A DNA stretch of 60,878 nt from the IMG/VR virus record IMGVR_UViG_3300023184_009656, positions 1 to 60,878 of that record; one strand, written 5' to 3'. This DNA is from a virus. Below are positions 3,868 to 58,262 of the stretch, piece after piece. The notes beneath the pieces are model-generated. The model did not search any database and was not told where the DNA came from. It saw only the letters and a list, made by a program, of their open reading frames with translations. Positions within the stretch are counted from its first letter, which is position 1, and every line of letters begins with the position of its first letter. A program made the position numbers and the translations under genes.

Positions 3868-4766
3868 TAGTCTTGCCATCAACTTCTTCTGGTTTTATAA
3901 GTAGCAATAAAGCTTTTCCTTATCTTCCTAGATCTATAAGAGAAAATAACTCTTTATATCCTAATAATGAATTTATAGTTTTACCTACTGAAGGTGAAGT
4001 AGCTAAATGGACAGAAAGAGCTCCAAATGGTTGGGGTCAATATTCACCATATTATAATGTATTTTTAAAATATTATTTAAAATCAGATGACAGCGCCGAA
4101 AGTATACCAGCTGGAGGAGGAAATATTCATTGTTTAAAAGCTGCAGGAATTGGCTCACGATTAGGTCTTGGAAGAGTAAGAAATATTACAAAAAATCCTA
4201 TAGGCACAACAAATCTTGCTAATGATTGGAGTTTGTATAATATATCATCTAGTTCTGTTTCAATTACTACTCAAACTTATGTTGATTTTGGATGTTTTTA
4301 TAGAGTAACTAGTAATGACCCAATGAGATCATTAAATTTTGGAGCAATTGCTATAAATTTTTCAAGAGTTACACCTGTTCCTTCTAATAGTTATTTAAAT
4401 TACTCAATAATACATGGTGGCGGAGTTAATCTTCTTGGAAATAATTCTACTTATACATATTTTAATACATATGATGAAGCTAAAACTTATGAAGCATATA
4501 ATCAATGGCTTGGGTCAGCATTTATTAAGTTTAAAAAACTTGACGAAATAAACCAAAGCTCAGTATTTAATCAATGGCAATTTTTAAGTTATAGGGTCAC
4601 AATTCCAACATTTGTAGATACTCCACAAGACGATGGAGCTACTGGTAAAGCTCAGATCTGTACCCTTAGACTATGCTTTTGTGAAAATAATAGTTATCTT
4701 GATGATGGTTCTGGCTTAAATACTGGGTCTATTCAATTTTTATATCCATTTTTGAATTTGAGCTAA
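3864..4766 (+). CDS. Hypothetical protein, probable fibre-associated virion protein
   Basis: A 300-residue protein whose ATG overlaps the stop of the tail fibre gene (ATGA), which implies translational coupling. It is rich in Tyr, Asn, Ser and Gly with few charged clusters, as expected for a beta-rich virion component. A segment around residues 45-60 (EVAKWTERAPNGWGQYSPYYN) and a C-terminal hydrophobic sheet-like stretch are visible, but I recognise no family. No signal peptide or membrane segment is seen. Coupling to the fibre suggests a fibre tip, receptor-binding cap or fibre chaperone; this is inference from position only. Confidence 0.75.
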   Translation: MIVLPSTSSGFISSNKAFPYLPRSIRENNSLYPNNEFIVLPTEGEVAKWTERAPNGWGQYSPYYNVFLKYYLKSDDSAESIPAGGGNIHCLKAAGIGSRLGLGRVRNITKNPIGTTNLANDWSLYNISSSSVSITTQTYVDFGCFYRVTSNDPMRSLNFGAIAINFSRVTPVPSNSYLNYSIIHGGGVNLLGNNSTYTYFNTYDEAKTYEAYNQWLGSAFIKFKKLDEINQSSVFNQWQFLSYRVTIPTFVDTPQDDGATGKAQICTLRLCFCENNSYLDDGSGLNTGSIQFLYPFLNLS

Positions 4767-4782
4767 AAAATCATTATTATAT

Positions 4783-4790
4783 AGTGTAAT
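4783..4790 (+). promoter_or_regulatory. AGTGTAAT element, candidate late promoter
   Basis: AGTGTAAT lies in the 33-base gap before the 4800 gene, 9 bases from its ATG, with no Shine-Dalgarno in between. The same octamer or close variants sit in most + strand gaps. If it is a -10-like box, the transcript would start almost at the ATG. Confidence 0.5.
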
Positions 4791-4799
4791 ATCTATTAT

Positions 4800-5324
4800 A
4801 TGACCACTAATAAAATTGTAGATATTGCAGATGAAATTTATCGCGAATTAGGCGAACCAACTGATCTTAGTCATGCTAGTATTGCTTTTTGGTTAAGAAC
4901 TAATATTGGCGATCTTAATCTTCTTATTAATAAAAGATTTTACATAAGTGAAGATACTTTTGAAGTAACTGTTCCAGAAGATCTTAATGATACTTTTGGA
5001 GATATTGAAAAAAGCGTATTTAAAATGATTTATAGTATTCATTATTATGAAAGACTTTTTAGAAATGCTCTTGGCGCAGCTAGCACAGATAGCACAATTG
5101 AAATAACAGAAAATGGATTTACTGGCAGAAAAGTTAATAAAAATGAATTAGCAAAAACTTATGCTCAATTAAGAAAGCAAATCAATGATGAGCTTCTTGT
5201 TCTTACTAAAAATTACAATCTTAATGAAGCTAAACCTATTCAAGTTGCTGGAGATGATATTTATCAAGATCCAACAAGACCTTATACTTATACTAGCTAT
5301 CTCAGAAGCATAGAGAATTCATAA
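4800..5324 (+). CDS. Putative neck / head-tail connector protein
   Basis: A 174-residue mostly helical soluble protein opening the small-gene block between the fibre genes and the tail tube gene. It contains the hydrophobic helical segment HASIAFWLRTNIGDLNLLIN near residue 25 and a helical middle (KSVFKMIYSIHYYERLFRN), then a charged helix (KTYAQLRKQINDELLVLTK). This pattern fits gp6/gp15-type head-tail adaptors, and the genomic slot just upstream of head-closure and tail-completion positions agrees. I cannot identify the family from sequence alone. The ATG lies 9 bases after an AGTGTAAT element and has no visible Shine-Dalgarno. The next gene begins one base after its stop. Confidence 0.7.
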   Translation: MTTNKIVDIADEIYRELGEPTDLSHASIAFWLRTNIGDLNLLINKRFYISEDTFEVTVPEDLNDTFGDIEKSVFKMIYSIHYYERLFRNALGAASTDSTIEITENGFTGRKVNKNELAKTYAQLRKQINDELLVLTKNYNLNEAKPIQVAGDDIYQDPTRPYTYTSYLRSIENS

Positions 5325-5325
5325 T

Positions 5326-5769
5326 ATGGCTTCATTTTTGTCAGCTGGTGATATTGCAGGATTTCAAAAAGATGTAAATACTCATTTTGATACATTTAAA
5401 AGATTATTAACAGTTCATAAAACACCAGTTAAAAAAATTACAGTTTCTATTCAAAATCCACAAGTTCTTGGATACGAAACTAATTCTGTAGAACAACAAT
5501 TTGAATACGAACAAAGGAGTTCAGATTTTTATGCAATTATATCATATGAAACAGAAAGAAGACCAGATATTATAGAGCAAATTCAAATTAAAACTAATAA
5601 TCCTCTTGTTTCTATTAAAGTTCAAAAAGATGCTAGAGATTACATCTTAAATGGCAAAACAGAAAAAATTGCTTTTGATGATAAAAGTTTTAATGTAGTA
5701 AGCACAGATATAGTTAAAAATTATCAAGGGCTAAAATATTATTTATTCTATTTAGAAGAAGCAAAATAA
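5326..5769 (+). CDS. Putative head-closure/neck protein
   Basis: A 147-residue protein with a short helical N-terminus (SAGDIAGFQKDVNTHFDTFKR) followed by alternating beta-like stretches such as KKITVSIQNP and FYAIISYETERRP. Size, secondary structure pattern and position second in the connector block resemble head-closure or stopper proteins of long-tailed phages. No diagnostic motif is recognised. The ATG sits directly after the upstream stop, and its own stop is followed one base later by the next ATG, so the genes are probably translated as one unit. Confidence 0.65.
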   Translation: MASFLSAGDIAGFQKDVNTHFDTFKRLLTVHKTPVKKITVSIQNPQVLGYETNSVEQQFEYEQRSSDFYAIISYETERRPDIIEQIQIKTNNPLVSIKVQKDARDYILNGKTEKIAFDDKSFNVVSTDIVKNYQGLKYYLFYLEEAK

Positions 5770-5770
5770 C

Positions 5771-6361
5771 ATGGGCAGCGTAGACTATACTTCTATTCGA
5801 GAGAAGATTAAAAATGTAAAAAAACTAGAAGTTTTGGCTGACAAAAAAGTTCAAGCTGGCGTAGAAGAAGCTAAAAGTAATTTCATAGAACAATTTGAAG
5901 AGCATCCAATTACCAAAGAAATTCAAGATGGCCCAGAAGCAAGTAATTCATCTGGAACATTAAATGGTCAAGGAAATCTTTTTAGTTTTATAGGTTTTGA
6001 AAGAGGATCTAATCCAATCGCGCCAGTTTCTAATTTCTTAAAAAATGCATTTCAAGTTAAAAAGTTAAAAACAGAAATTGGTAGATCAAAAATAGTTATA
6101 AATTATAAAGTATCATATCCAACACAAAAAGAATTAGATGGCTTAACTCCTATGCCTTGGGAACCTGGTAATAGTTGGTTAATTAATGTAGAAAAAGGTA
6201 TATCTGGTTTTAGTAATTATATTAGCAAAAAATTCTCTAAAGGTAGATCTGGAACAGGTGTTCAATCATCAGAAAATGTTAGATCTGCCAATTTCAAACC
6301 AACGAAATATATGTCAGATATAGTTAGTAATTTCTTAAAAAGTGTAAAGAAGATTAAGTGA
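5771..6361 (+). CDS. Putative tail-completion protein (HK97 gp10-like position)
   Basis: A 196-residue basic protein. An N-terminal helix (residues about 1-45, Lys-rich, with KVQAGVEEAKSNFIEQFEEHP) is followed by a Gly/Ser-rich loop and a beta-rich middle, ending in a Lys-rich helix. Tail-completion proteins commonly combine an N-terminal helix with a beta domain, and this is the expected gene position. Its final codons overlap the GTG start of the next gene (GTGA). The match is by architecture and synteny only. Confidence 0.6.
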   Translation: MGSVDYTSIREKIKNVKKLEVLADKKVQAGVEEAKSNFIEQFEEHPITKEIQDGPEASNSSGTLNGQGNLFSFIGFERGSNPIAPVSNFLKNAFQVKKLKTEIGRSKIVINYKVSYPTQKELDGLTPMPWEPGNSWLINVEKGISGFSNYISKKFSKGRSGTGVQSSENVRSANFKPTKYMSDIVSNFLKSVKKIK

Positions 6362-7209
6362 AAATACAATTTGATAATTTAGTTACTTCTAGTATGATGC
6401 TATTTATTGATAATAAATTGTGTTCTAAAGGAGAAGCTTTTACTAATTATAGTGGTCAAATATATCCTATTGAAAGTAGTTATTACTCTTATAACACTTA
6501 CGCTTTACCATTTAGACAAATTATAGCAGATAGTTCAATTAGTGGCGCTAATATTATGTCTGGAGTTTATGTTAATAATACATTTACTCCTGTTAATACT
6601 AGTAATTTAGTAGGAATTAATCATTATAGAGGTCAAGCATATTTTAGTGGAGCTGCTGGTGGCAATTTAAGTGGCAGATACGCTGTAAAAGATTTTAATA
6701 TATATTTAACTAACAAACCAGAAGAAGAGATATTATTTGAAACTCAATACAAAATAAGGCCAAAAATAGCTCAAAGTTTAACTGGTTTAGCTGATAATGT
6801 TGAAACTATACCATCAATTTTCATCAAAAATAATGGCAGTATGAATCAGCCTTTTGCTTTTGGTGGCATTAAAAATTCAATGTTAGATATAAGAGTTATT
6901 GTTTTAGCTGATAATTTATATAATTTAGATGCTGTTTGTTCAATTTTAAGAGATACAGCCAATACTTTTGTATATACAATAGAATCTAGTGATTTAAAAC
7001 TAGATAATTTAGGTAATTTTACAAGTGGCTATTATAACTATAATAATATAGTAAGTAATAAGGTAAATAGCACAGATAAGCTTTATATTGAAGAAGTTAG
7101 GGTAAGTAAAGTCCCCAATGTAGGATTTAATAGCGTTAATTACAAAAACGTACTATACCCCGCTTTTATTGATTTTACTCTAAGAAAAGTTAGAGCAAAT
7201 TTGAATTAA
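6358..7209 (+). CDS. Hypothetical virion protein before the tail tube gene
   Basis: A 283-residue protein starting at GTG, which overlaps the upstream TGA; no better ATG lies near the N-terminus. It is Asn/Ser/Tyr/Gly-rich with a central beta-type region (residues about 100-160) and ends with IDFTLRKVRANLN. It occupies the slot normally held by the tail terminator just before the major tail protein, but at 283 residues it is longer than usual terminators. A tail terminator or a neck whisker/collar protein are both possible. An AGTGTAAA run 9 bases before the GTG may be coincidental because it also encodes part of the upstream protein. Confidence 0.6.
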   Translation: MKIQFDNLVTSSMMLFIDNKLCSKGEAFTNYSGQIYPIESSYYSYNTYALPFRQIIADSSISGANIMSGVYVNNTFTPVNTSNLVGINHYRGQAYFSGAAGGNLSGRYAVKDFNIYLTNKPEEEILFETQYKIRPKIAQSLTGLADNVETIPSIFIKNNGSMNQPFAFGGIKNSMLDIRVIVLADNLYNLDAVCSILRDTANTFVYTIESSDLKLDNLGNFTSGYYNYNNIVSNKVNSTDKLYIEEVRVSKVPNVGFNSVNYKNVLYPAFIDFTLRKVRANLN

Positions 7210-7232
7210 AAGTTCTCAAGTGAGATAATTTG

Positions 7233-7240
7233 ATGTAATT
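7233..7240 (+). promoter_or_regulatory. Weak variant of the AGTGTAAT element (ATGTAATT)
   Basis: ATGTAATT lies in the 59-base leader of the tail tube gene, ahead of a strong Shine-Dalgarno AGGAGA at 7255-7260. It matches the late element in its GTAAT core only. Confidence 0.3.
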
Positions 7241-7268
7241 TTAAATGAATTTATAGGAGAAAAAATAT

Positions 7269-8084
7269 ATGGGCAATGTAACATACTATCCAGCACAAAA
7301 ACTAACCGTAACAGGTACAGAACTTAATCTAGTTCAAAGCGCAGATGTCGATTTTAGTATTAGTCGTCAAGATATTTTTGAATTCGGCAATCTTTACGCA
7401 ATTGATAACATTCAAGTAGAACCGCCAACCGCTACTTTAAATTTTTCTTACATTCTAGCTACTGGAATTAATAATCACATTCTATTAGGTTTAAACAACC
7501 TAGACGTTTTACTCGCTGATGTAACTGGCAAACAATATGTGTTAAGCGGTGCTGGAGCACTTACAATTCCAAGTGGAGTTATTACTTCTTATGCAGTAGA
7601 AGGCTCAGTAGGAAATGTTCCAACAGTTACCGTGAGTGTTCAAGCTCTCGATGCAACGTATACTGCTGGTCTCCCAACTTATCCAGCGGGTAGCATTAAT
7701 GATATTAATGTTATTCGCCCAGATCAAATTAGTGTTAGTCTCGCTGGAACAAACTACGAATGTAGATCTTTCTCATTCACATTAGATATTCCACGCGAAT
7801 ATGTTAATAAGTTAGGGCAATTAACTCCTATTGCTAATATTTTAACTGGCCCACCAAAGGTTACAGTAGAAGCAGAAATTATTCTAAGAGATAGCGCAAA
7901 TCCAAAATTCGCAAATGATGCTTCCAATAACGTAAACATTGTTTGCGGTTCACTAAATTTTGCGGTTTCTGGAGCCAAACTAGCTAACTTTACTTCTAAT
8001 ACAACTCTAGACGATATTCAAATCGCCTCAGTAACATTAGAAGCACCAGTTAAATCAAATTCTCAAATCACAATCTCTGCTTAA
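7269..8084 (+). CDS. Major tail tube protein
   Basis: A 271-residue beta-rich protein with balanced Thr/Val/Ala/Leu composition. N-terminal residues include TYYPAQKLTVTGTELNLVQS, then an alternating pattern expected for a tail-tube beta barrel. It is followed, after two small genes and a chaperone-position pair, by the tape measure gene, the standard order of long-tailed phages. It has the strongest Shine-Dalgarno of the block (AGGAGA, 8 bases from the ATG). It also uses noticeably more C-ending codons (AAC, GAC, TAC, CTC, CGC) than neighbours, as expected for an abundant protein. A long hairpin follows its stop. No sheath gene accompanies it in this window. The identification rests on position, composition and expression signals. 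Confidence 0.75.
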   Translation: MGNVTYYPAQKLTVTGTELNLVQSADVDFSISRQDIFEFGNLYAIDNIQVEPPTATLNFSYILATGINNHILLGLNNLDVLLADVTGKQYVLSGAGALTIPSGVITSYAVEGSVGNVPTVTVSVQALDATYTAGLPTYPAGSINDINVIRPDQISVSLAGTNYECRSFSFTLDIPREYVNKLGQLTPIANILTGPPKVTVEAEIILRDSANPKFANDASNNVNIVCGSLNFAVSGAKLANFTSNTTLDDIQIASVTLEAPVKSNSQITISA

Positions 8085-8090
8085 GGTTTC

Positions 8091-8140
8091 AATATTATTA
8101 TAATAAACTAGACTTTCCGTTTGGTTTATTATATAATATT
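8091..8140 (+). terminator. Long AT-rich hairpin after the tail tube gene
   Basis: The left arm (8091-8108) and right arm (8124-8140) are complementary over 17 base pairs apart from one extra base, with a 15-base loop (8109-8123). A short T run follows. It could terminate part of the tail tube transcript or protect/process its 3' end, lowering expression of downstream genes. Confidence 0.6.
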
Positions 8141-8157
8141 TTAAAGGTAAAAGGTGT

Positions 8158-8373
8158 ATGTCAAAGGAACAAGACTATCTATCATTTCAAGTTAGAAGAA
8201 AAGTTACTTCTTTATTCAAGAATTATTTTATAATCTTAGAAGATCTCGTTAGAGAAAATCCTTCTATTTCACAAGAAAAATATAATCAAATCCGTAAAAG
8301 GATTTTAGATTATAGTAATGATACAATTAGAGAAATTGAGCAAGATATTGAACAATTCAAAATTTCTTTATGA
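8158..8373 (+). CDS. Small helical hypothetical protein
   Basis: A 71-residue highly charged protein, almost entirely helical, containing VRRKVTSLFKNYFIILEDL and a C-terminal EIEQDIEQF segment that could form a coiled coil. It lies between the tail tube gene and the chaperone-position genes. The start is supported by an AAAGGTAAAAGG purine-rich Shine-Dalgarno region. Its last bases overlap the next ATG (ATGA). No family is recognised; a tail-assembly helper role is inferred from position. Confidence 0.7.
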   Translation: MSKEQDYLSFQVRRKVTSLFKNYFIILEDLVRENPSISQEKYNQIRKRILDYSNDTIREIEQDIEQFKISL

Positions 8374-8630
8374 AAAAAATATCATTCAATTTTCCAGCCC
8401 AAAGTATAATTGAGGCTAATTTAAATTTACAATCTATACAAAGAGCTCTTTCTCAAGAATATAAAATCTATAGCCCAAAGCTAGAAACATTAATTAGTGA
8501 TAAATTTATATCCATATACAAAACATGGGATATTAAAAGAAAAGAAGATTTCGTCAGAACAATTGCTGGTAAACTTAACTTTAAGAAAGTTAAATCTTTT
8601 TTTGATGAAAAAACAGGAGAACAAATATGA
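8370..8630 (+). CDS. Small hypothetical protein in tail assembly block
   Basis: An 86-residue basic protein (MKKISFNFPAQSIIEANLN at the N-terminus) with a helical C-terminal half. The gene overlaps both neighbours by ATGA, so it is translated within a tightly coupled set running from 8158 to the tape measure. No recognised motif. It may be an assembly factor or a minor tail component. Confidence 0.65.
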   Translation: MKKISFNFPAQSIIEANLNLQSIQRALSQEYKIYSPKLETLISDKFISIYKTWDIKRKEDFVRTIAGKLNFKKVKSFFDEKTGEQI

Positions 8631-9388
8631 TACCACTTAAATTTTTATACAAATTCAAAGCTATTGAAACAATTGAAAAAGAACAAATCGAAGAGTCAAA
8701 AAATGACCAAGGCGAAGTAGTTAAAACTATTAAAACAGTCAAAGAAGAGAATCCTGTAGAATTCGCAGTTAGAAAACCTAACAGAGTTCTTTTTGATGAT
8801 GCAGAACTTTTCTATGGCGTAAAATTGGCTGAAGCAATTAAAGCTGGTATGTTAACTAAAACATTAATGATTAAAAAGTATGAAAAAGATGGCGGTATTT
8901 TTACTGAAAATGAATTAGAAAGAATTAAAAATATACTTGAATCTCTAGGTGAAACTCAAGCTAAATTAGATATTCTAGATCCAAAAGAAGAAACTAAAGA
9001 ATTATCAGAAGAAGAGAAAAAAGAAAAAGATAACCTTGAAGCTATGCTTAAATCTTTAAGATTAGAATTAATGGAAGTTGAGAATAATAAGAATAATATA
9101 TTTGAACAAACTGCTGAAAATAGAGCTAAGAACAAAATGTTAATGTGGTGGATTTTACAATTATGTTATAGGAAAGAGGGTGAAATATACTCTCCTCTTT
9201 TTGGTGAAGGTTCTTACGAACAAAGGATAGCAAAGTATGATGAATTAGAAGAAGGTGATGATAAATTCTTAAAGAAAGTACTTACTAAGTTCGCATATTT
9301 TGTTAGTTTTTGGTATGCTGGTAAAGCTAATACAGAAGAAGAATTTAAAAATGTAGAAGATTTTGTTGATAAGGAAAATGAATCTTGA
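8627..9388 (+). CDS. Putative tail assembly chaperone, copy 1
   Basis: A 253-residue acidic protein in the position of the gpG-type tail assembly chaperone, shortly upstream of the tape measure. The N-terminal region contains VEFAVRKPNRVLFDDAELFYG, a charged coiled coil covers residues about 105-160, and residues about 163-180 carry the pattern A-E-x-x-A-x-N-K followed by aromatic residues and I-L. The same pattern recurs in the next gene, so the two look paralogous. The C-terminus is acidic. Tail chaperones bind the tape measure and guide tube polymerisation in the cytoplasm. The stop overlaps a TTG start for the next gene (TTGA); there is no usable -1 slippery window, so coupling rather than frameshifting is likely. 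Confidence 0.65.
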   Translation: MIPLKFLYKFKAIETIEKEQIEESKNDQGEVVKTIKTVKEENPVEFAVRKPNRVLFDDAELFYGVKLAEAIKAGMLTKTLMIKKYEKDGGIFTENELERIKNILESLGETQAKLDILDPKEETKELSEEEKKEKDNLEAMLKSLRLELMEVENNKNNIFEQTAENRAKNKMLMWWILQLCYRKEGEIYSPLFGEGSYEQRIAKYDELEEGDDKFLKKVLTKFAYFVSFWYAGKANTEEEFKNVEDFVDKENES

Positions 9389-49022: not shown

Positions 49023-49577
49023 CTACCAAAGTTCACTGTCTTCTTGATTATTAGAGCTTTCTGTAGTTGGATTTTCTGGTTGTTCTTTTTTAGAGTTTTT
49101 TAAATTTTTAATAGTTTCAATTCTTTGAGTTTCAAATACAGAGTTTAAAGCGTAAGATAAAAACTCTTTGACAAGACGAGCTTCATTGAAATAAAAACCA
49201 ATTAGGTATGATTGTTTATTTTCGCTATTTTGCTTGTCTTCCTTATTAACTGAATATGAGAATCCAACTTGTTTGTCATCCCTAATATATGGGCAGAACT
49301 TAATTCTAGTGGTTTGCTTTTCAGATGTATGATAAGCAGAAAATTCGGTATTCCTTTCAATTGCATCTAGAATGCCAGCAGCTTCTGTAAGAGAAAACTT
49401 AACTTTAACACTCTTGTTGGGATTATTTTGATTATTTGAAAATGAGCCAATCTTTTTAGCTTCATTCCATGAGCTTTGTTTAATTAATGATCCCCAAATT
49501 GAGGCATCTTTTGAGTTTACTGTGAAGCTACAGGCTGTTCCTGTATTTTTACTATTTGGTTTATAAAATGATATCAT
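49023..49577 (-). CDS. Putative single-stranded DNA-binding protein
   Basis: A 184-residue protein. The N-terminal 130 residues are beta-rich (ACSFTVNSKDASIWGSLIK, VKVKFSLTEAAGILDAIERN), followed by a helix and a Lys/Pro region. The acidic tail ends with E-D-S-E-L-W, similar in logic to the acidic, aromatic-ended tails of SSB proteins that recruit partners. Its position next to polymerase core and recombination genes fits. The fold may be PC4/Whirly-like rather than OB. It has its own consensus promoter and leads the glycosyltransferase genes. Family assignment is inference. Confidence 0.5.
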   Translation of the reverse strand: MISFYKPNSKNTGTACSFTVNSKDASIWGSLIKQSSWNEAKKIGSFSNNQNNPNKSVKVKFSLTEAAGILDAIERNTEFSAYHTSEKQTTRIKFCPYIRDDKQVGFSYSVNKEDKQNSENKQSYLIGFYFNEARLVKEFLSYALNSVFETQRIETIKNLKNSKKEQPENPTTESSNNQEDSELW

Positions 49578-49622: not shown

Positions 49623-52187
49623 TTAAGAACTTCTCTTGAGTTCGCTTAATTTCATATAAATTTGATGATCTTGAATTGCTGCAATATCTGCAAATATACA
49701 ATCTTCTTTTTTGATACCTTTAAATATAACAATGTTCTTTTCTTCAAAATTCTTGTCTTTATTTAGTGTTTTATTATTATCTATCTTATCATTGAATAAT
49801 AAGACATTAATATTGCCAGTTTCATCGCCAGTATTTAATCTTAAAAATCTAGTTTTCTTTTCATTTTTAGATACGCCAGAATAACTATCCATAATTTCTG
49901 CAACAAATGCTACTTTAGAATTAACTGGTAAATCTAGAATTTCATTAATAGTCATTAAGTCTTCTTTCTTTTCAATAAAGATATCTCTTAATGATTTTTC
50001 GTAAGTATAACCAAGAAGTCTTTTTTCGTAATACCAATTAGCAAAGCTTTCGCTTTTGCTATTTTGATTATAAATTTTAAGATAAGGCTCATATTTATTT
50101 TTAATTGTTTCTAACCTAGAACCTTTAATAATAACTTTATTTTTCTCATCTGTAAAAGAATTTAAATGTTTAATAATCTTAATTAAATCGTGATCAAATT
50201 TTTCAGCAAATGAAATCACATATCTTTTTTCTTTGGTAGTTAAGATATTCCAAAGTTGAGCTTCTAGTACGATTTTACTTCTACTTTGCTTAAAGCCAGT
50301 TAATGCTCCAGCTTGAATTAAGGAGCATAATACTCCTATATTTAAATCTGCTTCTTCTGCTGCTTGAAAAATTTCAAACTTATTCGAGTATTTGTTTCTG
50401 AAGCTATTTAACTTTTCAATTGATTTATCCGAAATACCTTTTACAGAAAGTAATCCAAATCTGATATCTTGACCTTCAATTGAGAAATCCATTTCAGATT
50501 TAATAACATGTGGTCTTAAAAGTTTGATTCCAAAAGATGCCATTTCCTTTTGAATCTTAGAAATTTCACCAATTGGATCTGGTTCATGTCTAGTCATCTT
50601 TAATAAAGATAAAAAGAATTGTTGAGGATAGTTAAACTTTAGATAAACTGTAACTGCTGCTAAAGCTGCATAAGCTAGTGAATGAGATTTATTGAATGAA
50701 TAATTTGCAGAATCTTCCATAATCTTCCAAAGAATATCTCCAACTTCTTTTGGAAGTTTATTTTCTTTTATTTTTTGCTTAATTTTTGATTGCCATTCTT
50801 TAATTTCTTCGGTCTTCTTTTTTCCAACGATTCTTCTTAAGATTTCTGCTTCATCTAATGTGAAACCAATCTTATGAGCCATTTGCATCAATTGCTCTTG
50901 GTACAATGCAACTCCACCAGTATCTTTTAGAATATCATCGAAGAATGGATGAATACTTTCAGATTGTTGAAAATTTGTATGAGCAGCATATTTATCTACG
51001 AATTGTAATGCTCCAGGTCTTGCAAGTGCTAAAACTCCACTGAGTTCTTCTAGACTTTTAGGTTTAACTTTTTGACATACTCTGAAATTTGTATCAGCTT
51101 CAATTTGAAATAATCCATGTGGTGATCTTAAGTCTTGAAGGTTTCTATATATTGATTCGTCATTCAAATCAATATCTGTAACTTTCCTATTAATACTTTT
51201 ACAAACATCATCTACAACAGAAACGCTTCTTAAGCCTAGAATATCAAGTTTAATATTAAATAAACTTACCCAACTCATATCGAAACTGGAAACAGCTTCT
51301 TTGTCGCTCGATAACTCTGTTGGGCAAGCGTTCTCTAAATAATCATAAGATAGTAATACTCCAGATGGATGGACTCCTTTGTTCTTGATTAGATTTCTTA
51401 ATTTTAAAGCTATTTGATAAATTTCTTTATTTGCGTCACACCAATCTTTAAATTTTGGTACTTCTTCATAAGCAGTTGAAATATCTTTGACTTGACCGAA
51501 CACTTTGGGAATTAAAGAGGATACTTCGGTCATCTCTTGTTCTGATTTTTCATCAATAATTTTGCCACACTCCTTAATGAGTAATTTTCCACTTAGAGTA
51601 TTCAATGTTAAAATCTTGCTAGTTTTACCTTTAAATTTTTCTTCTAAATATTGTAATACTTTAGGTCGATTATAATAACAAATATCCAAATCAACGTCGC
51701 ACATTAAACTACCATCTAAGTATGTTACTCCATCAACAACCTGCTTTTTAGCTCGAATCTTGGATATAAATCTTTCGAAATAAAGGTCATATCTGACTGG
51801 ATCAATTCTAGTTACCCCAATTAGATATAAGATTAATGACCCAGCAGCTGATCCTCTGCCAAGGCCAACTGGAATGCCCTGTTCTTTACAGTAGTTGATA
51901 ACGTCCCAAACCAATAATATATAATCAATAAATCCTAATTCTTTTAAAGTATCTAGTTCGTATTTAGCTCTATCAATATATTTCTTGTATTCTGGTGAAT
52001 CTTTTTTGATATTTAAATCTTTGAAACCTTTTAAAGATAAAGCTCTTAAGAAATCATAGTTAGATGAGTCTTCACTAATCTCTACTTGATGTTTGTATAC
52101 TTTATCTATAACAAACTCTGGTAATCTTACTCCATGCAGAGGAAGATCAATCTTACTGAAGCTTGAGGAAAAATCTTTAGAATTCAT
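49623..52187 (-). CDS. dnaE: DNA polymerase III alpha subunit, polymerase core without PHP domain
   Basis: An 854-residue protein from ATG at 52187; a TTG at 52211 would add eight residues. It starts at the point in DnaE just after the PHP domain (PLHGVRLPEF). Visible landmarks are G-R-G-S-A-A-G (about 110-116), the catalytic C-D-V-D-L-D-I-C with D166 and D168, H-P-S-G-V, the third Asp D315 in K-L-D-I-L-G-L-R, A-L-Y-Q-E-Q-L-M and N-K-S-H-S-L-A-Y in the finger/thumb region, and a C-terminal OB-fold near residue 730. All three catalytic Asp are present. The missing PHP domain is encoded separately at 53510-54271. It is the phage replicative polymerase; sliding clamp and loader genes are not in the window. 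It overlaps the 74-residue gene upstream. Confidence 0.93.
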   Translation of the reverse strand: MNSKDFSSSFSKIDLPLHGVRLPEFVIDKVYKHQVEISEDSSNYDFLRALSLKGFKDLNIKKDSPEYKKYIDRAKYELDTLKELGFIDYILLVWDVINYCKEQGIPVGLGRGSAAGSLILYLIGVTRIDPVRYDLYFERFISKIRAKKQVVDGVTYLDGSLMCDVDLDICYYNRPKVLQYLEEKFKGKTSKILTLNTLSGKLLIKECGKIIDEKSEQEMTEVSSLIPKVFGQVKDISTAYEEVPKFKDWCDANKEIYQIALKLRNLIKNKGVHPSGVLLSYDYLENACPTELSSDKEAVSSFDMSWVSLFNIKLDILGLRSVSVVDDVCKSINRKVTDIDLNDESIYRNLQDLRSPHGLFQIEADTNFRVCQKVKPKSLEELSGVLALARPGALQFVDKYAAHTNFQQSESIHPFFDDILKDTGGVALYQEQLMQMAHKIGFTLDEAEILRRIVGKKKTEEIKEWQSKIKQKIKENKLPKEVGDILWKIMEDSANYSFNKSHSLAYAALAAVTVYLKFNYPQQFFLSLLKMTRHEPDPIGEISKIQKEMASFGIKLLRPHVIKSEMDFSIEGQDIRFGLLSVKGISDKSIEKLNSFRNKYSNKFEIFQAAEEADLNIGVLCSLIQAGALTGFKQSRSKIVLEAQLWNILTTKEKRYVISFAEKFDHDLIKIIKHLNSFTDEKNKVIIKGSRLETIKNKYEPYLKIYNQNSKSESFANWYYEKRLLGYTYEKSLRDIFIEKKEDLMTINEILDLPVNSKVAFVAEIMDSYSGVSKNEKKTRFLRLNTGDETGNINVLLFNDKIDNNKTLNKDKNFEEKNIVIFKGIKKEDCIFADIAAIQDHQIYMKLSELKRSS

Positions 52188-52401
52188 CTTCTGGTTTATC
52201 TTCTCTATCAATTTTATCTATTTCTTCATTAAATGCTTGTAATCCTTTGGATAAAACTCTCATAGATTCTGCACTTTTGAGATAATAAAATACGTCAGCT
52301 TTACCTTGCTTCTTGCCTTTGGTAACAGTAATAAGAAGATATTCAATATTATTATCTTCTAGTCTTTGTGTCATATCGTATACGTCGTCTAATGATGCCA
52401 T
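52177..52401 (-). CDS. Small acidic hypothetical protein between exonuclease and polymerase core
   Basis: A 74-residue protein with an N-terminal helix (MASLDDVYDMTQRLED), a central beta hairpin containing YLLITVTKGKKQGKADVFYY and an acidic C-terminus (DREDKPEDEF). It lies one base after the exonuclease stop, and its end overlaps the polymerase core gene. No family recognised. Position suggests an accessory or linker subunit of the split polymerase. Confidence 0.65.
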   Translation of the reverse strand: MASLDDVYDMTQRLEDNNIEYLLITVTKGKKQGKADVFYYLKSAESMRVLSKGLQAFNEEIDKIDREDKPEDEF

Positions 52402-52402
52402 A

Positions 52403-53041
52403 TTATATCTCCATTTGCCATTTCAATTTATTCCATACTTTTAAATTCAAGTCAAGATCATTAATAGCGTCATGAAGTTTGTCGTAGTCATGTTCTATAT
52501 TATTCTCTTTTCCTAAAGCTGTCAATGAACTTTTTACATTTTTCTTTTTAGTATGATAGATTTTGTATTGATACTCTAATAAATTTATATCATTTTTATA
52601 TGGAGTTCCATATTTTATGCCTCTAGCAATACAATTTGTATCAATTATCTTGTTTAATAAATGCTCATAATGACAACCCATTGTTTTATAAAGCTCTTTA
52701 ATTAAATAAACATCGAAACCTAAAATATTATGTCCAACAATATAATCTGCGTGATCTAGCCAATCTTTGATTGTTGGAAAAGCGTCTTTAATGTTTAAAC
52801 CTTCTTTTTGAACTCTTTTATGATCGTATCTTGTGATTCTTGCTGCATCATCACTTATTTTCAAATCCGTGTCCCATTTAATATAAAAGTTTTTACTATC
52901 AACTCTAAAATCTCCTTTAGCTTTAATAAGTCCAATTTGCCAAGGCAAGTTATGTGAAAAATTTAAACAAAGATTAAATGTTTCCAAGTCTATGAAAACA
53001 AAAGTTTTATTTTTATTATATCTTAAAAGATGTTCGTCCAT
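52403..53041 (-). CDS. DnaQ-type 3'-5' exonuclease (proofreading)
   Basis: A 212-residue DEDDh exonuclease. Exo I is F-I-D-L-E-T (D18, E20), Exo II is G-H-N-I-L-G-F-D (D110) and Exo III is H-D-A-I-N-D-L-D (H190, D195). All four acidic residues and the catalytic His are present. It resembles the epsilon subunit that proofreads for polymerase III alpha. It lies between the split parts of the polymerase and shares tight spacing with them, so it probably serves the same complex. The local PHP domain has lost metal ligands, making this the likely proofreader. Confidence 0.88.
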   Translation of the reverse strand: MDEHLLRYNKNKTFVFIDLETFNLCLNFSHNLPWQIGLIKAKGDFRVDSKNFYIKWDTDLKISDDAARITRYDHKRVQKEGLNIKDAFPTIKDWLDHADYIVGHNILGFDVYLIKELYKTMGCHYEHLLNKIIDTNCIARGIKYGTPYKNDINLLEYQYKIYHTKKKNVKSSLTALGKENNIEHDYDKLHDAINDLDLNLKVWNKLKWQMEI

Positions 53042-53042
53042 A

Positions 53043-53516
53043 TTAATCTAAAAATGGATCTGTATTTGTTTTAACAAATCCATTTAAACCTCTTATTTGA
53101 TAATGCCAATTTAAATATTCTTGTGGTGAGATGTGTTTCCATCCGTCTTGCTTACAAAGATTATACATAGAAAATCCAGAAAGATCTTGCAAAAAAGCAA
53201 CGATATAAGCATCAACCCCTAATCTATTTGCAACTTTGATAATTCTTCTAGCTTGAGTATCTCTTACGAAGAACCTATGGATAATAGCTTCAAAATATTT
53301 ATCTGAAGGCTTAAATTCTCTATCAATTCTAGTTAATTCAAGAACTGCAACTGGTTCTTCTTGATTATTTTGGTAGCCCCATTCAATTTGGTCAATATCA
53401 GATGCATATAGTTTAGGTTGATCATAAATCCATTGTTTATAATCTCTTAATCTATCCTCTCGATCTTCTCTTTGGATAGCTTTTGTACCATTGATAGTTA
53501 ATTTTTTGACTAACAT
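53043..53516 (-). CDS. Unknown protein inside the split polymerase locus
   Basis: A 157-residue protein, basic at the N-terminus (GTKAIQREDREDRLRDYKQ). It includes YFEAIIHRFFVRDTQARRI, then a KVANRLGVDAYIVAFL strand region and KQDGWKHISPQEYLNWHY. The alternating pattern suggests an alpha/beta fold, possibly nuclease-like, but no catalytic set is evident. It overlaps the PHP gene by 7 bases and ends one base before the exonuclease, so it is embedded in the polymerase operon. It may be a polymerase accessory factor. Confidence 0.65.
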   Translation of the reverse strand: MLVKKLTINGTKAIQREDREDRLRDYKQWIYDQPKLYASDIDQIEWGYQNNQEEPVAVLELTRIDREFKPSDKYFEAIIHRFFVRDTQARRIIKVANRLGVDAYIVAFLQDLSGFSMYNLCKQDGWKHISPQEYLNWHYQIRGLNGFVKTNTDPFLD

Positions 53517-54271
53517 TTAACCTGCTCTTTCCAAGCTTCGAAAGAAAATTCATCACTGCTCATATGATTTAATTCTGGTTTATTTAAGGTCGTTCTGTTA
53601 TTGATGCATCTAAATGTAAGATAAGATTTGAAATCTTTTTTAGTTTTGTAGTAGATGCTCTTTACATTCATTAGTTCAAGTTTATTTGCTTCTGCATATT
53701 TAATAATTTTTTCTTTTATAATAAAATTAAAAGGTAAGCAATTATTTTCTAAAAGCATAACTGGTTTAGTAAAATTAAAATTTGGAACACAAATAAAATT
53801 CTTTAATGTGTTATTAAAGATGAAAGAATCGTAAAATGGAATACATAGCATCAAATCATTATCTGACCACATCTTTTCTAAAGTTTTATAATCAATTCTT
53901 GGTTCGTAGTAGAATCCATTCTTCGCTGCTTCTGTAAAGATTTTAATAAGTCTAGTATAACCTTCATTAGTTTTGAAGAATATAACTACTTTTGATGTTT
54001 TACTTCTAGACTCTTCTGTTTTATCTTCTATATTATCGTTAATTGATAGTCTTAATCCATATCTTAGGTTTATATTATTCTTTTTTGTATTAGTATATGC
54101 TTGAAGAAACGAAGACATATTATCTTCAATTAAAAATAAATCTTTAATATCATTCTTTTTAGCTATATCAATAATTGAATCTGGATCATTTTCTGAAATC
54201 TCTTCATCTTCTAAAGTAAGGATTGATCGTCCTATACTGAAGTGAGATTTGAAAACTGGTAATACTTCCAT
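53510..54271 (-). CDS. Free-standing, degenerate PHP domain of DNA polymerase III alpha
   Basis: A 253-residue protein aligning with the N-terminal PHP domain of DnaE. Correspondences include F-K-S-H-F-S-I-G-R-S-I-L at the start (E. coli: H-x-H-S-D-Y-S), I-N-L-R-Y-G-L-R-L, E-G-Y-T-R-L-I-K-I and G-F-Y-Y-E-P-R-I-D with K-T-L. The end matches the final PHP segment (a D-F-K-S-Y-L-T-F-R-C-I helix and T-L-N-K-P-E). The H-x-H metal motif is reduced to one His and other ligands are not obvious, so nuclease activity is probably lost. It likely folds with the polymerase core encoded 1.3 kb downstream. It starts after a perfect consensus promoter. Confidence 0.8.
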   Translation of the reverse strand: MEVLPVFKSHFSIGRSILTLEDEEISENDPDSIIDIAKKNDIKDLFLIEDNMSSFLQAYTNTKKNNINLRYGLRLSINDNIEDKTEESRSKTSKVVIFFKTNEGYTRLIKIFTEAAKNGFYYEPRIDYKTLEKMWSDNDLMLCIPFYDSFIFNNTLKNFICVPNFNFTKPVMLLENNCLPFNFIIKEKIIKYAEANKLELMNVKSIYYKTKKDFKSYLTFRCINNRTTLNKPELNHMSSDEFSFEAWKEQVKC

Positions 54272-54277
54272 TGGGCT

Positions 54278-54306
54278 ATTATATAATCAATGTATTAATT
54301 TGTCAA
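54278..54306 (-). promoter_or_regulatory. Perfect sigma70 promoter for the split polymerase operon
   Basis: TTGACA (54301-54306), 17 bases, TATAAT (54278-54283) on the - strand, 6 bases before the PHP-domain ATG. The -35 box contains the TGA stop of the upstream nuclease gene. Confidence 0.85.
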
Positions 54307-55250
54307 TCTAAAAAGTCATCATCTTTAGATACTGATTTATTATTAAATTTGGGGCATCCTTCGTATTTTCTTGTTTCTACTTTAAATCCTTTAATGTCTT
54401 TAAAATTATTTTGTAAACTAGTTTCTACTATTTGGTCTTTATCATTTACTTTTACATAATATTCATAAGGATCTTTATATGGGCATTTCCACCCACCAAC
54501 TTGACACATCCATTTATTCTTAATATTATCTATTGCAAAATTTGCTTGTGCTGAATTTTCATCAAAATTATTAACATATTCATTTATATGTTGTAGATAA
54601 TGCTCGAATCCTTTAAGTTGATTATCATCAAATGTCAATTCTTGTATTGGTTGTTTTGGAAATCTTAAAAACAAGAATTTAACAATAGGTTTCAACTTGG
54701 GCCATAATTTTTTACTAGCAAGACTATACATCATCGCTTGAATATTAGCTTCAAGGTCATCACCCCTAAACTTGTATTTGGAGCTTTTATAGTCAATTAT
54801 ATGCATTTCTTTTTTGATTTTAATAGGCTTATCTATAAAACCCTTAATATGATATTTTGGTTCTTCATTAACTATATCAAATGCATATTCTGGTTTAACT
54901 ATTTCCCCACCTTCTCCAAAGAAATCATTTTTAAGGCCAACTAGAATCATATCATTTAATAGTTTATAATTGTCTTCTTTAAGTTCAACTTTTTTAGCAA
55001 GTCTCTTAACTAATCTTGCAATAGCTTTATCGCCATCTATTGAGTTTTTCTTAATAACTCTTTTGTAATTTTTAAGGTGTCTTTTATTTAAAAGTAATTC
55101 GAAAATCTTATGACAGATTGTACCTCTTAAAGCTCCATCGTTTTGAGATTGTGGAACTTTAGCATGATAATTAAGCCAATAAACCCAAGAACAAGTTTCA
55201 AGAGTTTTAATTCTAGATGCTGATAATGTTTTTAAAGATTGTTTTTCCAT
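54303..55250 (-). CDS. PD-(D/E)XK nuclease, RecB/Cas4-like
   Basis: A 315-residue nuclease. An L-R-G-T-I-C-H motif (H47) precedes the active-site D140 in I-K-G-F-I-D and the D153-x-K155 motif (I-I-D-Y-K), with a downstream Q-A-M-M-Y helix (Q171). Four Cys at 20, 249, 256 and 299 are spaced like the split iron-sulfur cluster of AddB/Cas4-type nucleases. It probably trims DNA ends for recombination or processes replication intermediates. It overlaps the primase gene by 19 bases. No adjacent CRISPR genes exist, so a Cas4 role is not implied. Confidence 0.8.
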   Translation of the reverse strand: MEKQSLKTLSASRIKTLETCSWVYWLNYHAKVPQSQNDGALRGTICHKIFELLLNKRHLKNYKRVIKKNSIDGDKAIARLVKRLAKKVELKEDNYKLLNDMILVGLKNDFFGEGGEIVKPEYAFDIVNEEPKYHIKGFIDKPIKIKKEMHIIDYKSSKYKFRGDDLEANIQAMMYSLASKKLWPKLKPIVKFLFLRFPKQPIQELTFDDNQLKGFEHYLQHINEYVNNFDENSAQANFAIDNIKNKWMCQVGGWKCPYKDPYEYYVKVNDKDQIVETSLQNNFKDIKGFKVETRKYEGCPKFNNKSVSKDDDFLD

Positions 55251-56137
55251 TGTAATATTTCTTTTTTATTCATTTCTCCAAAATCTTTCTTAGTTGGAAG
55301 TTGAATTGAGAGTTGTCTTGAGTCAAAATATCTTAATAATTTATTCATGCCTTTTTCGCAAGCTTCATTTCCAGCGTTATTTTTCTGTGAATCATTATTA
55401 AATGATATATAAATTTTATTAGGATCAATTTTAAGTAAGAGGTTTAATATTGAAATACTTATTTCTAATCCAAAAGTTACAATAGTATTTTTTACTCCAG
55501 CTTGATAAAGAGACAAGCAATCTCCGATGCTTTCAATTAAGAAAACCTCTTTAGTTTCTTTTATTTGCTCTAAGTTTAAAAACATTGGATAGCACCATGA
55601 GCTTTTGTCTCCTAAATGTTTCCATTTGATCTTGCTTTTATTTGTAATATCTCTGCCAGAAAATCCTGTGATTTCATTTTTGCTATTAAATATTGGGAAT
55701 ACGTATCTGTCTTTCATTTTGCCAGCACTAGCAATTCCACCTTGAAATTCTTTTATTACTTGTTCTTCTACTCCTCTATTAATCCAGTAGTCATGATTTT
55801 TATTTAATTTTAAAAGAAGATCTTTATCAAATGTTTTCTTCTCTTTCATTTTAGGTTTTTCATCTTTATTTACTACATGTTGAAAGTTATTATTCTTTAA
55901 CCAGATTTTAGCTTGTTCTTCGGTTTCAAGTTTCAAGCTCATCTTAACTAAAGAGTTAAAATCTCCACTAATATTTTCTTTGAAATCTACCCAAAATCCA
56001 GAATCTTTATAAATTCTTAATACAGTATCATTATCACTATCTCTATAAATAGGTTTAGTTCGATATTCTCTACCAAAGTCTTTTAGAGAATATCCCATGC
56101 TGGTTAATATTTGATGAATATTTACTCCTGTTTCCAC
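55232..56137 (-). CDS. DnaG-like primase with altered Toprim and no zinc cysteines
   Basis: A 301-residue primase. The GTG start is supported by a CGGAGG Shine-Dalgarno 7 bases upstream. Residues about 20-65 resemble a CHC2 zinc-binding domain fold but hold no Cys. Residues 144-163 (R-Y-V-F-P-I-F and G-F-S-G-R-D-I) match the DnaG catalytic N-terminal subdomain. The Toprim is V-F-L-I-E-S-I-G-D (E202, D206) and a final I-S-F-N-N-D (D249) in place of the usual D-x-D, so the first Asp is Asn. There is no C-terminal helicase-binding domain. It should make RNA primers with the DnaB encoded two genes upstream. Confidence 0.82.
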   Translation of the reverse strand: METGVNIHQILTSMGYSLKDFGREYRTKPIYRDSDNDTVLRIYKDSGFWVDFKENISGDFNSLVKMSLKLETEEQAKIWLKNNNFQHVVNKDEKPKMKEKKTFDKDLLLKLNKNHDYWINRGVEEQVIKEFQGGIASAGKMKDRYVFPIFNSKNEITGFSGRDITNKSKIKWKHLGDKSSWCYPMFLNLEQIKETKEVFLIESIGDCLSLYQAGVKNTIVTFGLEISISILNLLLKIDPNKIYISFNNDSQKNNAGNEACEKGMNKLLRYFDSRQLSIQLPTKKDFGEMNKKEILQWKNNL

Positions 56138-56781
56138 TCTAAAGCCTCCGATATAGTTGGGAATTGTTCCATAAAAATCTTTTTACAATCTTCTGCAATT
56201 AGTCTATGTTCTTTTTGAGTGTTCTTTTCTGTTCTAAGATCAAGATAATGAATCCAGCTTCTTAAAGAGCCTTTCATATACATTGTGGTTTGAGTTGTCA
56301 ATGGTAATACCATTCTGGCTACTTCTTTAGCTATTCCAGATTGAATCATAAGATCATAACAATCTTGGGCCATAGCTAAACTTTCCATCATAAAAGTAGT
56401 TACGTTGTCATATTGTGGATGATCTTTGGGAATTAACTCTTCTCCAACTTGTCTATTTTTATCACCCTGCATTCTAAGTTCGATATCCTCAAATTCATTT
56501 GCTGCGCTATATCTTTGACTAAATTCTTGAAATGAAAAAGAGCGATGCCTTAATATCTGCGCTGCAATTGCTCTACTAGTTTTTATCTCTACTGTTAAGT
56601 CCACCATTTCAAATGGACTCCAATGTTTATGTTTAATTAGAAATTTTAAAAGTTTTGGAGCGGTTTCTGTATTTATTTGATTAGATGGATTACTGACTCT
56701 TGCACAATAAGCTACTAAATCCTCTGCGTTATAGACTTCTTCTACTTCTGGTTTAGTAATTGATATTAATTTGACGCTCAT
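56122..56781 (-). CDS. thyX: Flavin-dependent thymidylate synthase
   Basis: A 219-residue ThyX. It contains the signature R-H-R-x(7)-S (R78, H79, R80, S88) within a FAD/dUMP-binding helix, plus H-W-S-P-F-E-M and a later M-Y-M-K-G-S-L-R-S-W-I-H-Y-L segment typical of the family. It makes dTMP from dUMP using methylene-tetrahydrofolate, NADPH and FAD, supplying thymidine for AT-rich phage DNA. It overlaps DnaB by ATGA and the primase by 16 bases, so it is in the replication operon. All key residues are present; high confidence. Confidence 0.95.
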   Translation of the reverse strand: MSVKLISITKPEVEEVYNAEDLVAYCARVSNPSNQINTETAPKLLKFLIKHKHWSPFEMVDLTVEIKTSRAIAAQILRHRSFSFQEFSQRYSAANEFEDIELRMQGDKNRQVGEELIPKDHPQYDNVTTFMMESLAMAQDCYDLMIQSGIAKEVARMVLPLTTQTTMYMKGSLRSWIHYLDLRTEKNTQKEHRLIAEDCKKIFMEQFPTISEALEWKQE

Positions 56782-58262
56782 AGTAATTCTCCATCATTTT
56801 GATTTTGATCATTTAATTCGTATTGCTCTCTTTGTCTAGCTGCAATTTCTACTAATGAACCATGTTCTGTGATATTGAAATTTTCTACTCTATAGTTAAG
56901 ATAATTTTGAGCCCATGTTTCTTTACCAGTACAATCTAATCTGCGAACAATATCTTGGTGTCCAGCTGCATCTTTACCTTGGAATCGAGTTTTGGTTGGA
57001 ATTAATTTATGAGTTCCAAATTGTGGAGTATCTAAAGCTAATTCATCAACTGTTTTTCTTCTGAAGATTGCAACAAATGAAGCGAACCATTGCAATCTAT
57101 CTGATAATGAAATTGCAGAAGCATCGTCTGTAACATCTGCACCTTTTCGGTTAAAAGATTCTCCGCTTCGATTTAATTGCATCGCTGTGATAATTGGTGC
57201 TTGTAATTCTTCTGAAATTCTTTTTAGCTTATCAATCTTATCTCCAATGGCTTGATGTTCTGCCCAGTTTTGACCAACCTTTTCTCCAGTTAATTTAATA
57301 TAATCATAAGCAATTACTGCTTGGTTTCCTCTTCCAACATGAGAAAGATGCCATCTACGAATCATTGAGCAAATTTGATCTATGTTTTTACTACCAACGT
57401 GATAATGATGATATTGATAATTTTTAATTAATGGCCATGCTGATCTAACTTTTACTACCATTTCTTCATTCTTACGCCAATTACCAGTTTCCAAGTACCA
57501 AACTGGAACACCAGTTAATGAAGATATCATTCTAAATCTAATATCTATTGCTTGCATTTCTGTATCTAAAATTAATGCTTTGACTTTGTTCTTTGGATTG
57601 ATTGATGTTTTAAAACACATGTCATTAATCCAAGTACTTTTCCCTTGGCCTGGACGACTTACAATTGCGTAGATATTTCCATTCTTTAAACCACCATACA
57701 TTCTGTTAAATTCTGGATATGGAGTTATTAACCCAGTTTCTTCTTTTGGTGAATTTCCAATTTCTTCAATGATATCTTCTGCATCTTGAAAAAGATTAAC
57801 TGGTAAATCATTTGTTGTATAAGCAGATATTTTCCCATTATACATGGCATCTGCATCTGCTAAAATTTGATCTATAGATAATTCACTATTTTTCGAAACA
57901 TGAGTTTTAATTTTATCTGCCGTATCAAGTATTTCTCTACGAATTCTTAATTTTAATAATTCTTTGCAAGCTTCTACTGTTGCTTTTTCTGTGATTTGTG
58001 AAAAAGAAAGATTATCAATATAGTCATAAATATTAATATCATCTTTAAAAGAAATACCTAAGTTTTTAATTTTTTCTGCTAATAATACTTTATCAACAGT
58101 TTCGCCTTTGTGTTTTATATTCTTATAAACAGCATATATTGTGGAATGCACATCATTATAGAAATCATTTTCAGAAATAAAGGTATCAATATCTGCAAAA
58201 AGATTTTGATACTTAATTAAACCGCTTAATACATGTCGTTCAATCTGAACAGAATAAATCAT
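56778..58262 (-). CDS. dnaB: DnaB-type replicative helicase
   Basis: A 494-residue helicase. Residues 1-150 match the DnaB N-terminal helical domain. The RecA-like ATPase has Walker A at 202-210 (S-R-P-G-Q-G-K-S-T), Walker B at 315-320 (A-V-I-A-Y-D), and a C-terminal Q-L-N-R motif with an arginine finger region. It unwinds DNA at the fork as a hexamer and recruits the primase. The gene starts an operon with thyX, primase and nuclease under its own sigma70 promoter (TTGACT, 17 bases, TATCAT). Confidence 0.94.
   Translation of the reverse strand: MIYSVQIERHVLSGLIKYQNLFADIDTFISENDFYNDVHSTIYAVYKNIKHKGETVDKVLLAEKIKNLGISFKDDINIYDYIDNLSFSQITEKATVEACKELLKLRIRREILDTADKIKTHVSKNSELSIDQILADADAMYNGKISAYTTNDLPVNLFQDAEDIIEEIGNSPKEETGLITPYPEFNRMYGGLKNGNIYAIVSRPGQGKSTWINDMCFKTSINPKNKVKALILDTEMQAIDIRFRMISSLTGVPVWYLETGNWRKNEEMVVKVRSAWPLIKNYQYHHYHVGSKNIDQICSMIRRWHLSHVGRGNQAVIAYDYIKLTGEKVGQNWAEHQAIGDKIDKLKRISEELQAPIITAMQLNRSGESFNRKGADVTDDASAISLSDRLQWFASFVAIFRRKTVDELALDTPQFGTHKLIPTKTRFQGKDAAGHQDIVRRLDCTGKETWAQNYLNYRVENFNITEHGSLVEIAARQREQYELNDQNQNDGELL

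Follow-up and report, generated by a model that had tools for sequence, protein, structure and literature searches.

Uncultured phages encode DnaE as separate PHP and polymerase core genes that flank a DEDDh exonuclease gene

The DNA analysed here, a phage contig of 60,878 bases from a virus record (hereafter, the window), is probably a fragment. Its minus strand carries a replication block with the transcription order DnaB, ThyX, primase, PD-(D/E)XK exonuclease, PHP, a 157-aa gene, DEDDh exonuclease, a 74-aa gene, DnaE core and a 184-aa gene (Table 1). The original prediction for this stretch was that DNA polymerase III alpha is split between a PHP gene and a polymerase core gene, that a DEDDh exonuclease lies between the two, and that the set forms a holoenzyme of separate subunits. 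Our analysis confirms the observation and partly supports the interpretation attached to it.

Table 1 Genes of the replication block in the window, with the evidence for each assignment
Feature	Position	Strand	Evidence
Stand-alone PHP domain of DnaE, 253 aa, predicted inactive	53510..54271	-	Pfam, phrog_405, PDB profile match, Foldseek, ligand census
157-aa protein, variable cargo slot between PHP and exonuclease; not a polymerase part	53043..53516	-	Slot contents in relatives
DEDDh 3'-5' exonuclease, 212 aa, proposed trans proofreader	52403..53041	-	RNase_T, phrog_192, 2p1j, catalytic residues
74-aa protein, kept in only part of the family	52177..52401	-	Alignment, locus census
DnaE core without PHP, 854 aa: palm, thumb, fingers, HhH, OB	49623..52187	-	Pfam, PDB DnaE, hhalign, residue invariance
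Neighbouring protein, predicted Whirly-fold ssDNA-binding protein, 184 aa	49023..49577	-	AlphaFold, Foldseek, alignment
Remaining replication block: PD-(D/E)XK exonuclease, primase (Toprim), ThyX, DnaB helicase	54303..58262	-	Pfam, PHROGs

Profile searches align the 253-residue protein with PHP. It matches the Pfam PHP family at an E value of 4e-11, above the curated cut-off, and covers positions 60–294 of phrog_405, a PHROG family of full-length DnaE. Among solved structures, its profile matched residues 95–252 of Thermus DnaE (E value 3.7e-9). The AlphaFold model of the protein (pLDDT 80, pTM 0.80) was compared with known structures using Foldseek, and its 19 best solved matches are all PHP domains of DnaE or PolC, led by 4GX9, the isolated E. 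coli PHP–epsilon chimera (E value 7e-11). In overall fold, the model is nearer to the PHP domain of DnaE than to free-standing PHP phosphoesterases.

The core ORF begins with an ATG at 52187, and a TTG at 52211 also lies in the open frame. The encoded protein contains the Pfam polymerase III alpha palm (1.6e-55), finger (8e-33) and HHH_6 (4e-16) domains and covers positions 322–1089 of phrog_405, so that together with the PHP gene it tiles one DnaE. Solved structures of Thermus and E. coli DnaE are matched from the palm onward (E value 7e-89), and hhalign placed the core on E. coli residues 241–1105, including the OB region and lacking the chain end. The catalytic residues D164, D166 and D315 correspond to E. 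coli D401, D403 and D555 and are retained almost without exception across about 150 sequences. The core thus has the Asp triad and the palm and finger domains of a C-family DnaE but not the N-terminal PHP domain in its own chain, which is a separate gene in all 145 loci of our census (see below). A conserved clamp-type motif comparable to the internal motif at E. coli residues 920–924 was sought in the core and not found.

The two proteins are separated at a domain border. The PHP protein ends near E. coli DnaE residue 240, the end of the PHP domain, and its last conserved block (HM-S-EF-FES) is the segment that precedes EEM in the alignment with E. coli. The original prediction, in which the match runs to the last segment, is corrected in this respect: the protein stops with the PHP domain and does not extend to the last segment of the canonical PHP–palm junction. 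The core begins at the strand preceding LP-F, near E. coli residue 275. At the PHP–palm border, a helix with the pattern EA..NT..IA.RC is present in most of the fused relatives that were examined. This linker helix, 25–35 residues long, is absent from both the PHP gene and the core, indicating that the cut lies at the border and that the linker was removed.

The metal site of the PHP protein was analysed by a census of nine metal-ligand positions in 142 PHP proteins and aligned controls. The ligand set of active PHP domains is HHDHEH(C/H)DH (PMC12926913), and the window family does not conform to it: two or three positions at most are kept, with the exact number hinging on the alignment of the first motif. 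A ligand Glu is replaced by R74 (133/142), a His by K94 (138/142), the Cys by F146 (142/142), an Asp by S/T205 (S205 in the window) and another His mostly by Y/F207 (Y207 in the window). Judged by its residues, the PHP protein is a complete DnaE PHP domain that is predicted to be catalytically inactive by the criterion of PMC12926913. Its dN/dS ratio is 0.04–0.11, with values of 0.04–0.06 against the two nearest relatives (loci L018 and L055). As the ligands have been lost and purifying selection is nevertheless strong, the protein has a role independent of metals. The conserved basic and aromatic replacements at the former metal site suggest a new binding pocket.

The exonuclease matches Pfam RNase_T (3.6e-12), the PHROG family phrog_192, annotated as 'DNA polymerase exonuclease subunit' (2.5e-21), and, by profile, the PolC exonuclease 2p1j (2e-4). 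Residues D18, E20, D110, H190 and D195 are invariant in 47 aligned sequences, completing the DEDDh set, and D18, E20, H190 and D195 are present in 146 of 147 sequences, with one gap. The exonuclease and the PHP protein are separate ORFs, unlike in PolC, where the exonuclease is inserted into PHP within one chain. The RNase_T match stops at residue 201 of 212, and the C-terminal tail with which epsilon binds alpha is absent. Since bona fide Pol III epsilon (DnaQ) is defined by this tail (PMC3666897), the DEDDh exonuclease of the original prediction stands, whereas its description as epsilon-like is weakened. Any contact between the exonuclease and the PHP protein must accordingly differ from the known one. 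The invariant residues at its N terminus (M1, D2, H4, L5 and R7) are candidates for such a contact. Among the isolates in the phage collection, the exonuclease found no match and the polymerase family has no representative.

The 184-aa protein downstream of the core is predicted to be a Whirly-fold ssDNA-binding protein, based on its AlphaFold model (pLDDT 87) and a Foldseek match to 4koo, WHY1 (E value 9.5e-6, probability 1.00). The family alignment shows an acidic tail with W184 as the invariant last residue.

To define the spread of this arrangement, viral contigs were scanned with the core, yielding 304 related contigs, and with the PHP profile, yielding 396. The fetched contigs gave 145 non-redundant loci that each contain PHP, exonuclease and core. 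The order PHP–exonuclease–core, which the original prediction proposed to look for in related phages, is found in all 145, and no ORF in them combines two of these genes. Among relatives, identity to the window core drops to about 48–50%, and it is about 41% between distant members in a C-terminal comparison. The genes of the trio are contiguous or overlapping at 29 loci, with both gaps at most 60 bases and often a start/stop overlap; in L237, for example, PHP spans 5147–5884, the exonuclease 5854–6507 and the core 6504–9068. From these loci we infer that the tight PHP–exonuclease–core trio is probably the basic unit. The split family forms one clade in the tree (support 100/100), and a search with a distant query found no fused relative of the same family in 70 further loci. 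The cut between PHP and core is real and old. A cellular origin of the split was considered and rejected, a genome scan having returned a single partial, phage-like match in a Flavobacteriales MAG.

Exactly one match each to the Pol III alpha and PHP families was found in 8 of 8 larger related contigs (91–172 kb), and no complete DnaE was found in them. No Pol A or Pol B was detected in eight contigs of 106–203 kb, a set overlapping the former, and a search for a bacterial beta clamp found none. These absences are provisional, as the contigs may be incomplete.

We propose, with a probability of roughly 0.78, that the locus encodes a C-family replicase of three proteins: the core, a structural PHP subunit and a DEDDh exonuclease as proofreader. 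This reading is supported by the intact residues of the polymerase and exonuclease, the loss of the PHP ligands, the strong purifying selection on PHP, the preserved gene order and the lack of any fusion or intein. The single Pol III alpha per contig, the one clade formed by the split family and the RNase_T gene directly upstream of fused DnaE in two isolate phages also speak for it. Points against it are the missing epsilon-type tail of the exonuclease and the lack of a recognisable clamp-binding motif in the core. In E. coli, the PHP domain is likewise dead, binds epsilon and stabilizes the polymerase (PMC3666897), and inactive PHP domains in bacteria are generally accompanied by a DEDDh proofreader (PMC12926913). 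An ancestral fused DnaE would have been cut at the PHP/palm border, with loss of the linker helix. We infer that the dead PHP protein would then act as a structural subunit, binding the palm again without a covalent link and completing the core, and that the three proteins would assemble. By analogy with the E. coli PHP domain and epsilon, the PHP protein probably docks the exonuclease and would hold it near the polymerase, where it would provide the proofreading no longer possible for PHP. More tentatively, and at slightly under even odds, PHP may be an obligate non-catalytic subunit with a conserved basic and aromatic pocket, and may clamp the tail-less exonuclease to the core by a contact not known in any Pol III.

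The lost linker and the conserved R74, K94 and F146 at ligand positions, which suggest a new pocket, would also be consistent with a freed PHP protein that has left the polymerase for another task, such as binding a phosphate ligand or regulating replication, and is only co-transcribed. We consider this unlikely, as PHP never occurs apart from the exonuclease and core in the 145 loci, its fold is still nearest to that of DnaE PHP rather than to the free-standing phosphoesterases, and the E. coli PHP domain is needed for polymerase stability (PMC3666897).

The adjacency of five genes in the window and its close relatives could point to a holoenzyme of five subunits that includes the 157-aa and 74-aa proteins, as the original prediction had it. 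The variability of the intervening genes makes this very improbable. The space between PHP and exonuclease is a cargo slot, in which relatives carry 14 unrelated protein clusters, and the 157-aa protein is missing from many loci. The 157-aa family accounts for 30 members; other occupants appear by eye to be PD-(D/E)XK-like, cupin-like, IMPDH-like, GlmS-like or HNH-like, and among the slot proteins tested a nuclease assignment has no Pfam support. With its position shared by unrelated clusters, the 157-aa protein is rejected as a polymerase subunit, and for it the five-subunit reading is largely refuted. In 96 of 145 loci the 74-aa gene separates exonuclease and core, which favours its inclusion, but it is missing there in the remaining 49 and lies elsewhere in L081, and the claim that it is an essential subunit is not supported. 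Neither protein has a significant Pfam match. A theta-like identity for the 74-aa protein was also tried and rejected, its profile having no solved relative and no significant library match.

That the pieces are rejoined into one DnaE chain by a split intein or RNA splicing is barely credible. The core of one family member, L214, contains a real split intein at SFNK/SHS, so these phages may use protein splicing. A NUMOD4/HNH endonuclease follows the N-half of this intein, which served as a positive control. At the PHP/core border, however, there is no room for intein halves: in about 40 representatives, no more than about 20 residues follow the last conserved block of the PHP protein, and a few to about 25 residues precede the first block of the core. 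An intein at this border was therefore rejected, in agreement with the original prediction. No Rfam intron family was found at 49–55 kb, other genes lie between PHP and core, and the linker is gone. As for structured RNA at the border, the sole match was a sub-threshold CRISPR-repeat, which was judged to be due to chance. An assembly artefact or a decaying polymerase gene is refuted by the identical cut in 145 independent contigs, the purifying selection and the intact active sites.

Bacterial replicative polymerases strictly conserve the PHP domain, including those in which it is dead, and its function is not entirely understood (PMC3666897). A widespread clade of uncultured phages in which PHP is a protein of its own is thus a natural experiment, in which PHP can be added or omitted without cutting a protein. 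The split has been kept in the only detectable replicative polymerase of the clade through divergence to about 41–50% identity, and a bacterial-type replicase can hence persist in parts over a long time. In the more tentative reading given above, the PHP domain would have become a dedicated subunit of a three-protein replicase, with its former metal site rebuilt.

Cyanobacterial DnaE is encoded by two genes cut in the fingers region, the products of which are rejoined by split inteins. This example, the only one cited by the original prediction, gives an incomplete picture, as split phage DnaE is recurrent. Two-gene DnaE proteins occur in Cellulophaga phage phiST (gp44/gp45, cut near E. coli residue 397), Rossellomorea phage phiT1 (gp20/gp18, cut near residue 575) and Mycobacterium phage MrMiyagi (gp83/gp84, cut within the core). 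Group 2.2 jumbo phages encode a minimal split Pol III alpha as separate proteins from distant genes, beside a family B polymerase and with no other Pol III domains, and hence without PHP (PMC7824862). In Pseudomonas phages 14-1 and tabernarius, an RNase_T exonuclease gene lies directly upstream of the DnaE gene; there DnaE is fused and the exonuclease precedes the whole gene, whereas in the window family it lies between the pieces. The E. coli Pol III core resembles the proposed replicase in its dead PHP, its DEDDh proofreader in trans and the docking of epsilon by PHP (PMC3666897), but differs in that PHP is a covalent part of alpha and epsilon bears the C-terminal tail.

The closest likeness in the site of the cut, at almost the same border, is found in Krampusvirus (Microbacterium phages of cluster EF), where DnaE is also encoded without inteins as a PHP gene and a core gene running from the palm onward (gp56 and gp57 in Rachella, gp61 and gp63 in Sparcetus). 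We came upon it through phrog_11165, which resembled a PHP-less DnaE and led via MrMiyagi to Krampusvirus. The available part of its published description mentions two DnaE-related genes without further analysis (PMC7302621). In Rachella, gp56 comprises PHP, the linker and a basic tail, and gp57 starts past the linker. Unlike the window family, Krampusvirus retains the metal-ligand residues and the linker helix, and has no exonuclease between the PHP and core genes. It groups with other actinophage polymerases in the tree, and a topology constrained to unite it with the window family is rejected (AU test, p = 1.5e-47); the PHP/palm cut thus arose at least twice, independently. Given the Krampusvirus case and the repeated occurrence of split DnaE in phages, the arrangement in the window is not categorically new. 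An earlier description of the window family was found in no open-licence paper, and its new features are that an exonuclease gene separates the pieces, that the PHP domain is dead by its residues, that the linker has been lost, and that the family is both deep and broad.

In one member of the split family, L214, in which DnaE is encoded as separate PHP, DEDDh exonuclease and core genes, a second cut in the core is a split intein at SFNK/SHS. The N-half of this intein is followed by a NUMOD4/HNH endonuclease, between the two halves is a methylase-like ORF interrupted by an in-frame stop, and a LAGLIDADG-like ORF is also present upstream. Elsewhere in the replication block, a GIY-YIG-like homing endonuclease, recognized by eye, is inserted between the primase and PD-(D/E)XK exonuclease genes of L067, and in three contigs (L027, L028 and L029) an insertion of more than 4 kb separates the PD-(D/E)XK exonuclease and PHP genes.

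The polymerase block also contains a cargo hot spot; the 72 ORFs that occupy it in the window and its relatives fall into 14 unrelated clusters. By eye, several resemble PD-(D/E)XK nucleases; Pfam gives no support for this resemblance.

Locations of features in the window and related loci
Feature	Locus	Location
DnaE core halves, split-family member	L214 (IMGVR_UViG_3300037205_000062)	4927-7260 and 7884-9089
GIY-YIG-like insertion	L067	4026-4781
>4 kb insertion	L027, L028, L029	about 2000-6300
184-aa gene, 3' of core; predicted Whirly-fold ssDNA-binding protein	window	49023-49577
Cargo hot spot	window and equivalent place in relatives	53043-53516 (window)
Krampusvirus split DnaE	L260 (MK737941)	gp56/gp57
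Krampusvirus split DnaE	L262 (ON755183)	gp61-gp63

The 184-aa gene adjoins the polymerase in most loci. Its predicted product matches plant WHY1 (Foldseek, E 9.5e-6) and carries an acidic tail in which Trp is the last residue in every case; it is a candidate phage SSB. Among the structural-half genes tested (window 1-44449), a single PHROG match, to a tail fibre, was obtained; the virion of this phage family is very divergent from those of described phages.

In Serratia phage KKP 3709 (L261, OR067833), DnaE spans four consecutive ORFs, one a 246-aa PHP piece, which could result from frameshift errors in sequencing or from a genuine division of the gene into four. In Krampusvirus, DnaE is cut at the PHP/palm border; this cut has an origin of its own, independent of the split family. 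The PHP piece ends in a basic, Arg/Ser-rich C-terminal tail (RRRRTSRRSASAR), and in Sparcetus a 63-aa gene separates the two pieces.
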